The translations under genes were made by a program, and so were the position numbers. From Neoarius graeffei (Eukaryota > Chordata > Actinopteri > Siluriformes > Ariidae), in the NCBI RefSeq assembly GCF_027579695.1, contig NC_083571.1, positions 72,820,779 to 72,884,778 of the forward strand: a stretch of DNA of 64,000 bases, given 5' to 3'. Below are positions 14,434-17,400 of this stretch, in pieces. How positions within the stretch are numbered: the stretch's first letter is position 1; every line of letters begins with the position of its first letter. The notes beneath the pieces were generated by a model. That model was not told where the DNA came from. It did no database searches and saw nothing but the letters and a program-made list of their open reading frames with translations.

Positions 14434-17400
14434 GTGAGGACATGTCTGTGTGTTTGATATTAAAGCAGCCGTGTGTGAGATATTAAAGCAGCTGTCTGTA
14501 AAATTTATGGCCCCCAGATGTCTGTGTCAGGATATACTTTTACACCTCATGAGTTATCTATTGAAATAAAGATGCAAGGCTTCTGTCTGATGTGGCTCAT
14601 TTCAGGGCCAGAAAATCGTAAACAGGCTTTTTTTTTTTTTAGGCACACTCGCACAGAAATGTGCACCACATTTCATGATCCAGTCACCAACATTTAGAAG
14701 TAACAATAAAACTGGACATACCATGTCTGTACCATTTAAAGAATGAAAACTAGAAAAGTCCTGAACTGAAAAAAACTCCAAACTGCACAGATTTATTATA
14801 TCTTTGTGAACGGCTGTTCGTCTAATTCAACAATTTTGTGATTTATTAAAGGTCTAGAAAAGTTTTTAAAGATCACAGATCATAATTTAACTGTTCAATT
14901 AAATTAAATTGGTGTGTGGGAATCAGTGAATGAGTTAAATCTTTGTGTTTTGGTGTGAAATGTTTTCCTTCCTGTCTCTGTGTGTAGACTCGACGATGGT
15001 GTCCGTGTGTCAGGCCTTCGCTTTACCTCAGCAGTTTGAAATCAAGTACAAACACCTGAATAGCAGCAGCGGAGAAGAGGACTTCCTGCGCACGTGTACG
15101 TCTTTATATTTATGTGGTGGTGCTTGAAAATTTGTGAACCCTTTAGAATTTTCTATATTTCTGCATATATTTTTTTCTCTCCATGCTCTCACGGAAGGCG
15201 GTCGCATTTCTCTGCCTCTCCTCTCCCTTATCTTCCCTGCTTTGCTCCTCTTGTCTCGTCTGTCTATTGCCTATACTTTTGAGAGACTCTCTCCACACTG
15301 CTCTCCAAACTAAAAAATCATGGAATTGATTAATTGGTCTCTTAACGAAATTGAGACAATTTTCTCGACGAGAAGCCTGGGTTCGGGGGAACCGGCCTGT
15401 CCTGCCGGAACGTTCGCAGCTGGCTACATGATGGACGCGTGGGAGAAGTGGCAGGTCGTGTGCCTGGCAGTTCTTTCTGTGGAGGACATTGAAGACATCA
15501 ACCTATTTGGAACCATTATTACAGGTCTTTTGCTGATTGGATTAGGCATTGCCCTGGTTTATCGAGGAAATCAGAAAACGGTGACAGCTGTCCAAAGCCC
15601 CATAAAGCTGCCCGACATGATTGAAGCAGTGGGCAGAGCTGTCGGCACTCAGACTGTGGCTATTCAGAACTTGAACCGCAACATGGATAACATCATGGAG
15701 AAGCTTTTGGCTTTGTAAAGGATAATGGATCGCTTCGGAGACCAGAATGGACAAACAGAGTAGTCATGCAAAAGAATGCGTCTACTCGCCCCAAGACCAA
15801 ACAATCCCAATCTTATCTGCTTTCGGCTCCCTCAGACAGCACTGGCCTCAGTCAAGGCCATTGCTGGAACAACAACTCCCCCTGAAGATCACTGCAGTGA
15901 GACGCTCTTGCATTCCTTCCCCCACTTCCCACAGTCGCCGCTTTTACCCCCAGTGTGACAAGCGGGTGCGCGACCAGTGCCGTCCTGGCTGCAGGAACGG
16001 AGGGCTGCTTGCTTGCACTGGGTTACCTCTACCTCCACCCCTCCACCCTTACCCCCCCCCCCCCCCCCCCCGATCGCCCCTCCCCCCTCAAGTCCCGAGT
16101 TTTCATGTTGTAAAGTGTGCTTGTGTTATTTTGTGCTTATGTGCTGAGGTGTTTTTTTTTTTAATGTTCCCACAGGAGCATAGTGTGGGGGTTGTTTTTT
16201 TTCTCCTCCCCTCTCCTCATATTACTCTGTATTTTTTCTTTTCATCCCTGTCTTCCTGTCCTGTCTACTCCCCCTCTGTCAATTGTATGTATGTGTATAT
16301 GTAAGGACGGGTTGATGGCCAATTTCGCTGGTACTTGTGACTAGTGACAATAAAGGGTTCATTCATTCATTCATTCATTCATAAATGTGACCTAAAACAT
16401 CATCAGATTTTCACACAAGTCCTAAAAGTAGATAAGGAGAAGCCAGTTAAACAAATGAGACAAAACTATTATTCTTGGTTATTTATTTATTGAGGAAAAT
16501 GATCCAATATTACATATCTGTGAGTGGCAAAAGTATGTGAGCCTTTGCTTTCAGTATCTGGTGTGACCCCCTTGTGCAGCAATAACTGCAACTAAATGTT
16601 TCCGGTAACTGTTGATCAGTCCTGCACACCGGCTTGGAGGAATTTTAGCCCATTCCTCCATACAGAACAGCTTCAACTCTGGGATGTTGGTGGGTTTCCT
16701 CACATGAACTGCTCGCATCAGGTCCTTCCACAACATTTCGATCGGATTAAGGTCAGGACTTTGACTTGGCCATTCCAAAACATTAACTTTATTCTTCTTT
16801 AACCATTCTTTGGTAGAACGACTTGTGTGCTTAGGGTCGTTGTCTTGCGGCATGACCCACCTTCTCTTGAGATTCAGTTCATGGACAGATGTCCTGACAT
16901 TTTCCTTTAGAATTCGCTGGTATAATTCAGAATTCATTGTTCCATCAATGATGGCAAGCCGTCCTGGCCCAGATGCAGCAAAACAGGCCCAAACCATGAT
17001 ACTACCACCACCATGTTTCACAGATGGAATAAGGTTCTTATGCTGGAATGCAGTGTTTTCCCTTCTCCAAACATACGCTTCTCATTTAAACCAAAAAGTT
17101 CTATTTTGGTCTCAACCATCCACAAAACATTTTTCCAGTAGCCTTCTGGCTTGTCCACATAATTAGCAAACTGCAGACGAGCAGCAGTGTTCTTTTTGGA
17201 GAGCAGTGGCTTTCTCCTTGCAACCCTGCCATGCACACCATTGTTGTTCAGTGTTCTCCTGATGGTGGACTCATGAACATTAACATTAGCCAATGTGAGA
17301 GAGGCCTTCAGTTGCTTAGAAGTTACCCTGGGGTCCTTTGTGACCTCGCCGACTATTACATGCCTTGCTCTTAGAGTGACCTTTGTTGGTCGACCACTTC

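Follow-up and report, generated by a model that had tools for sequence, protein, structure and literature searches.

Non-autonomous retroposons are mostly regarded as RNA parasites, and the short ones normally carry no open reading frame (ORF). The locus analyzed here, which lies in a stretch of 64,000 nucleotides from Neoarius graeffei (hereafter the window, meaning the whole stretch), raises the question of whether an element of this kind may encode a protein for its own spread, as proposed in the lead reading of a first-pass annotation made from the letters alone, or whether its reading frame has some other origin.

Structure and spread of the retroposon family

The element, read on the plus strand, is inserted in a Tc1-like DNA transposon (15117..18172, limits approximate), whose inverted ends match each other and a sister copy at about 12270-13868, and which also holds a LINE fragment and, on the minus strand, a DDE_3 match (16551-16997, Pfam). 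The sister copy is uninterrupted at both insertion points and therefore offers an empty site for both insertions. By comparison with this empty site, the discrete insert of about 1.2 kb delimited by the first-pass annotation stands, with its limits shifted from 15166..16378 to approximately 15168-16379, and it is flanked on both sides by CATA (15164..15167 and 16380..16383), a target-site duplication (TSD) of 4 bp at most. The ends of the two Tc1-like transposons in the window closely resemble each other, and the second transposon has received two retroposons that are unrelated. Judged by eye, three other family copies (L020, L025, and L038) have flanks that appear Tc1-like too.

This retroposon copy (15168..16379) is complete, and its layout, common to 40 near-full-length genome copies, consists of a pyrimidine-rich 5′UTR with the same start across copies (15168..15319; 72% C+T over 15171-15319), an ORF (15320..15718), a 3′UTR, and a tail. 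The reverse transcriptase (RT) is absent, as had been claimed, because the only ORFs of at least 100 codons starting from ATG are those of 132 and 185 codons, neither of which has a Pfam match at cut-off; the insert accordingly encodes none of the RT/endonuclease of CR1/L2/Rex-type LINEs. SINEs, for their part, have small-RNA heads and no ORF. No pol III head (tRNA, 5S, or 7SL) was found in the insert, ARAGORN detecting no tRNA gene in the window and Rfam giving three weak matches on 14900-18300, none of them inside the insert.

A genome-wide copy count, suggested as a check in the first-pass annotation, revealed a large dispersed family. In the window's own assembly (2.34 Gb, 38 contigs), the insert search returned 3443 candidate places, and the 40 that were scored gave 43 matches, three of them partial and 40 near full length (the window copy included). 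Apart from the window copy, these near-full-length copies are 86-93% identical; in 39 of the 40, the match begins no later than base 14 of the insert, and in 37 it extends to base 1185 or beyond out of 1211. The ORF search returned 2820 candidates, the best 150 of which were scored and show 87-94% identity apart from the window copy; 130 of these 150, as counted from rows in a set ranked by protein similarity, are free of stops. The exact tail 22-mer occurs at 239 genome places, against 0 for the reversed control. We estimate the copy number at hundreds at least and perhaps thousands, the larger figures being unscored candidates. Full-length copies are continuous 1.2-kb units without room for an RT, and some copies are segmental duplicates of a single insertion with shared flanks (e.g., L010/L018 and L033/L037). 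In one family copy (L081), a Gypsy-like LTR element with gag-pol-like frames appears, by eye, to be inserted in the 3′UTR. Finally, two copies (L122 and L123) form a second subfamily with about 82% DNA identity to the window insert over about 1.2 kb: they retain the whole layout, tail included, and the same ORF as the first subfamily (carried in two frames in L123), with a different 3′ loop and a diverged C-terminal ORF end.

Across copies, the 3′ end reads as a stem-loop, then ACAATAAAGGG, then (TTCA)n, that is, the 3′ stem-loop followed by a tandem repeat that characterizes LINE-mobilized elements of the stringent type. In the window, the terminal stem-loop (16326..16346) is predicted with four of four folding-window lengths and is followed by the ACAATAAAGGG(TTCA)n tail (16347..16382); the (TTCA)n tail described at the outset is indeed there, as an array at 16358-16382 behind GACAATAAAGGG. 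In L122 and L123, the stem-loop keeps its place although the loop differs and letters of the stem are altered, suggesting that the structure matters. The tail of L028 repeats (TAAG)n rather than (TTCA)n, a difference that slippage during priming may have left behind. A separate hairpin lies in the middle of the 3′UTR: its 3′ arm is found in 35 of 40 copies and its 5′ arm too in 32, and 34 of 40 fold below -10 kcal/mol (-20.9 to -24.6 kcal/mol in the printed examples). The window copy holds a remnant of it (16166..16190), with the 3′ arm present and the 5′ arm mostly missing.

The junctions and 5′ ends of the copies point in the same direction as the tail. Where junction repeats were measurable (31 of 40 copies), the longest shared string averages 4.81 bases, versus 4.02 in mismatched pairs and at most 4.41 in 200 reshuffles. 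A tail search returned 1757 candidates, 40 of which were scored, and upstream sequence was inspected for 25 of these, 10 already-known ORF copies and five others being left out. Five of the 25 tail-matched places begin inside the 3′UTR, six begin at bases 203-559, in five the upstream probe contains nothing of the family, and nine reach the 5′ region. The 5′ part is missing in 16 of the 25 (known ORF copies excluded), in a sample that favors truncated copies, in which a few cases may be later interruptions and one truncation is common to duplicates. A truncation point near base 556 was considered as a module border and rejected, two of its three cases being one duplicated segment on C21. As far as these LINE-type hallmarks of the sequences tell, notably 5′ truncation and short TSDs, this is a retroposon family moved by target-primed reverse transcription.

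The reading frame, its predicted product and its evolution

The first-pass annotation described the ORF as undamaged. In the window copy, the ORF is present and coding-like but shortened: it counts 132 codons, with a stop at codon 133 of a 147-codon family frame that would extend to about 15763. In each of the 22 other open copies, the frame continues beyond codon 133. Out of 40 copies, 23 (the window copy included) are open over at least 132 codons and 16 over exactly 147, while the remaining 17 have earlier stops or frameshifts and fall short of 132 codons. Length alone proves little, since a frame of 185 codons at 15747-16304 lacks codon periodicity (1258 of 2000 shuffles score at least as high) and since 47 of 1000 shuffles of the whole insert yield an ORF of at least 132 codons (1 of 1000 for the local segment). 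The 185-codon frame, which comes from the C/T-rich composition of the pyrimidine-rich 3′UTR, was rejected as a gene, as was an upstream ATG frame at 15183-15329, in which codon periodicity is likewise lacking (1801 of 2000 shuffles score at least as high). The ORF at 15320-15718, for its part, has a phase-3 information of 0.0575 bits versus a shuffle mean of 0.0108, a value reached by 0 of 2000 shuffles and matched by 1 of 322 overlapping 396-bp segments of the window. Along with the slow change of the ORF on inner branches reported below, this codon periodicity argues against a non-coding body of the SINE type.

With respect to the predicted product, the claim of one transmembrane helix rests on a real hydrophobic stretch (Kyte-Doolittle [KD] hydropathy of 2.45 over 19 residues from residue 62), and a single membrane span is predicted at about residues 62-81 (15503..15562), with acidic residues before it and basic residues after it. 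The positive-inside rule places the basic side of a membrane span in the cytosol, and the C-terminal part is therefore predicted to be cytosolic. Coiled-coil heptads are predicted in this C-terminal part (15608..15718), over family residues 97-139 as read on the copy L029, cut at 132 here; in the best of seven registers of L029, the a/d positions LIVVQILMILLMF have a mean KD of 3.09, versus -1.59 elsewhere. Pfam gave no match at cut-off for the window ORF or for the member shown of 19. Homology to DUF6476 was rejected: 14 of the 19 members gave a match with E no higher than 1, the lowest value being 0.00098, and the one shown scores 16 bits versus a cut-off of 24. The best PDB matches (E = 0.01 and 0.04) are weak, lie over the coiled-coil part and include no convincing relative; no relatives of the protein were found in viral, bacterial, and archaeal collections, which are not meant to hold animal DNA, and the plasmid collection gave a single match with E = 4. 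The AF2 model is poor and uninformative (mean pLDDT 42.7).

We took advantage of the number of copies to compare the change of the ORF before and after insertion. The tree comprises the window copy and 50 of 59 pooled copies (nine were dropped for coverage), namely 39 chosen by DNA, nine chosen by tail, and L080 and L081 from the protein-ranked ORF list, with changes counted by parsimony; terminal branches represent change after insertion, and inner branches change mostly in copies that spread. Outside CpG sites, ORF:UTR changes amount to 17:33 on inner branches versus 299:145 on terminal branches (p = 7.5e-6). The result stays intact without L080 and L081 (14:33 vs. 288:137, p = 6e-7), after further removal of one copy from each duplicate pair (16:30 vs. 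272:131, p = 3e-5), and with DNA-chosen copies only (16:27 vs. 227:121, p = 0.0007). Over these four copy sets, the per-column ORF/UTR rate ratio is 0.20-0.28 on inner branches and 0.88-0.98 on terminal branches; on the former, the ORF changes about four times more slowly than the UTRs. That ORF and UTR change alike on terminal branches speaks against a simple bias in alignment or mutation. At CpG sites, ORF and UTR do not differ (inner 85:27 vs. terminal 267:105, p = 0.47), and stops are involved in six inner-branch CpG changes. Between the subfamilies, the second being represented by L122 and L123 only, fixed differences over codons 1-116 affect 2 of 300 ORF sites, both synonymous, versus 9 of 156 UTR sites (p = 0.0015); over the last 31 codons, 11 of 73 sites differ, more than in the UTRs (9/156, p = 0.025).

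The contrast between nonsynonymous and synonymous changes (N:S) is less sharp. Outside CpG sites, it is 203:81 on terminal branches, which is neutral (expected 2.59:1), versus 9:8 on inner branches (p = 0.17); at CpG sites, it is 154:104 versus 45:34 (p = 0.70), and pooling both classes gives p = 0.08. Dropping L080 and L081 weakens the inner-branch hint (9:5, p = 0.56), and the DNA-chosen copies alone give 9:6 (p = 0.40). An earlier 40-copy count gave inner values of 15:8 outside CpG and 42:37 overall, and terminal values of 178:79 and 284:138; among the first 40 copies, single-copy variants were neutral-like (124:56, expectation 2.44:1) and shared variants lower (47:29). Nei-Gojobori dN/dS values, which mix selected and neutral branches and leave CpG decay uncorrected, are 0.44 for L122 and 0.47 for L123 against the 51 first-subfamily rows, 0.52 among these rows, and 1.08 between L122 and L123. 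The dN/dS check proposed in the first-pass annotation consequently has two sides: the ratio is near one after insertion, as for any dead copy, whereas the inner-branch N:S leans below neutral and differs non-significantly from the terminal one, so that N:S alone does not prove selection at the protein level. From the ORF/UTR and subfamily comparisons, we read the ORF, at least over codons 1-116, as having been constrained in the spreading lineage and then left to neutral decay after insertion. This constraint likely acts on the protein, which the comparison of copies does not prove.

The neighboring LINE and candidate helpers

A LINE tail located 1.4 kb away and sharing GACAATAAAG with the retroposon had been taken as a hint of a common mobilizing machinery. 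The LINE tail does exist (17743..17979, plus strand), as the 5′-truncated end of an unrelated LINE family that inserted independently in the same Tc1-like transposon. This family is small (33 candidates gave 33 genome matches, some of which are fragments of a single copy), and in L127 a 432-residue open stretch with RVT_1 (E = 2.3e-35) lies upstream of the LINE tail. The two copies inspected end in GGGACAATAAAGACTATTCT, one with further ATTCT repeats, and this end follows a CCC-UUU-GGG hairpin that two of four folding-window lengths predict. The likeness between retroposon and neighbor amounts to the decamer GACAATAAAG and chance-level short matches. A separate small family with an ATTCT-type tail speaks against the shared machinery, and the decamer would indicate, at best, that both 3′ ends belong to one broad class, without marking this LINE as the helper. 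Elsewhere in the window, other LINE remains are found at 52208-52777 and 44749-45495 (minus strand), respectively a reverse transcriptase fragment (RVT_1, E = 1e-11) and a frame whose zf-RVT match is weak and stays below cut-off (E = 0.00034). A 306-codon frame at 62619-63539 has a weak OSK domain match (E = 0.0022, below cut-off); by resemblance, we take it to be possibly an esterase-type LINE ORF1. Another frame, at 14160-14486, has no Pfam match and presumably resembles CLDND1.

An RT element with the retroposon's own tail may exist; none was found among the scored tail matches and with narrow patterns. In the upstream parts read of the 25 tail-matched places (by frames for nine of them and L080, otherwise by matching), no LINE RT was found joined to the retroposon 3′UTR. 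When all six tested upstream letters were required to differ, a filter that about 18% of unrelated sequences would pass, a tail 21-mer was found once. As candidates for an autonomous LINE carrying the ORF, a 1823-aa open frame and two ORF-tail pairs about 5 kb apart were rejected, the three long candidates consisting of a 5000-N block, two copies separated by about 4.2 kb of other DNA, and an LTR element in a copy. Of four places with another stem, the three that were inspected were likewise rejected as helper LINE, L122 and L123 being the second subfamily and L124 matching the retroposon over about its last 200 bases only.

Competing readings and known systems

On this basis, we regard it as an even call that the family is a non-autonomous, LINE-mobilized retroposon with an mRNA-like body, whose ORF would play an ORF1-like part for the element. 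The reading of a retroposon that makes its own membrane protein thus retains the many copies and an ORF slower than the UTRs on the spreading branches in its favor, and has the non-significant N:S against it. Under such a scenario, a pol II transcript of the retroposon would be translated into a single-pass membrane protein, whose coiled-coil tail would project into the cytosol and whose N-terminal part would lie across the membrane from it; this tail could oligomerize and gather its own RNA in cis at the membrane, bringing the RNA within easier reach of the RT of a CR1/L2-like LINE of the stringent type that recognizes the 3′ stem-loop, and the protein would thereby act in an ORF1-like manner for the copying of its own element. 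In its more specific form, which we put forward tentatively, the parasite would borrow a LINE RT through its 3′ stem-loop, and its own coiled-coil membrane protein, selected for the element's own copying, would anchor the RNA or the RT particle as a stand-alone membrane-bound ORF1p.

Other origins of the ORF have to be weighed against this one. The spliced mRNA of a cellular membrane protein may have gained a LINE 3′ tail and been amplified, in which case the conservation of the ORF would stem from the host or master gene without benefit to the element. The mRNA-like layout (5′UTR, ORF, and long 3′UTR) agrees with this scenario, as do the lack of a match to known protein families at cut-off and a tree whose inner branches are short and whose terminal branches are long, the pattern of copies made from few masters. 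The whole layout, tail included, is however common to both subfamilies (82% DNA identity over about 1.2 kb), and no host gene appeared among the best 150 matches of each of two protein searches. These matches, among which an intron-containing source gene was looked for, are family-like copies; the absence of a host gene weighs little, because only the best 150 were scored and all listed ones are 84-100% alike. We find this passenger origin unlikely. The first-pass annotation had envisaged that a LINE amplified a processed host-gene copy. This may hold for the origin of the ORF, but the large (TTCA)n-tailed family is at odds with a plain processed pseudogene, for which one copy or a few copies of a host mRNA, ending in poly(A), would be expected.

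A slightly less probable reading is that the frame is a leftover, the slow change of the ORF coming from constraint on RNA structure or from pyrimidine-rich UTRs that change fast between source copies. The slow ORF change could be explained at the RNA level, or by UTRs fast between subfamilies, because the inner-branch N:S tests are non-significant and CpG sites show no ORF/UTR difference; the 17 of 40 copies below 132 codons fit as well. Against a leftover stand the codon periodicity, the terminal ORF/UTR ratio of 0.88-0.98, and the two synonymous fixed differences in codons 1-116. We give still less credence to a half-LINE, made of the 5′UTR, ORF1, and 3′ end of an autonomous LINE with its RT deleted, in which the ORF would be that LINE's unusual ORF1. 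It follows the same logic as the mammalian element HAL1 (half-L1), which encodes only ORF1p (PMC5753468), and would account for the coiled coil and the LINE-like 3′ end, but none of the copies inspected has a LINE RT between ORF and tail, and the tail 21-mer with six differing upstream letters occurs once.

If the favored reading of an ORF1-like helper proved true, a selected membrane-protein gene would show that non-autonomous retroposons can evolve helper functions of their own, and the proposed link between LINE particles and membranes would become testable with a 147-residue protein. Annotators of such genomes would also have reason to suspect copies of this retroposon behind many single-exon "genes". 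Among the open-licence PMC papers that the literature searches listed, no title or abstract beginning showed such an element; the family may already have a name in Repbase/Dfam.

In terms of its 3′ end, the family resembles the SINE/LINE pairs of eel UnaL2 and zebrafish ZfL2, which have a 3′ stem-loop and a short tandem repeat as retroposition signal (PMC4176376, PMC3747384), the 3′ loop of stringent LINEs being recognized by the RT protein (PMC4176376). Its short TSDs also fit the 5 bp given for ZfL2-1 (PMC4245944). Unlike SINEs of the stringent type, it has no tRNA/Rfam head and a coding body. It shares with processed pseudogenes and retrogenes the intronless mRNA-like form of the copies (PMC3747384), but its copies number at least in the hundreds and share a (TTCA)n tail in place of poly(A). 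As for its protein, a place at membranes has been proposed for the ORF1 of esterase-type (type IV) LINEs (PMC4120745, PMC3905857), and would be shared by the product predicted here, which differs by the lack of an esterase match, the presence of a membrane span, and the absence of an ORF2; it fits none of the ORF1 types named in the portion of PMC4120745 consulted, except the open class of unclassified ORF1s. HAL1 and the present family are alike in being non-autonomous and LINE-dependent, with one protein and no RT (PMC5753468), but the HAL1 protein is the ORF1p of its parent LINE, whereas here no parent was found, the protein matches no known family, and a (TTCA)n tail stands behind a stem-loop. 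By this comparison, HAL1 is the closest known arrangement to what is most likely an ORF-carrying, LINE-dependent retroposon, with an unrelated membrane protein in the place of ORF1p.
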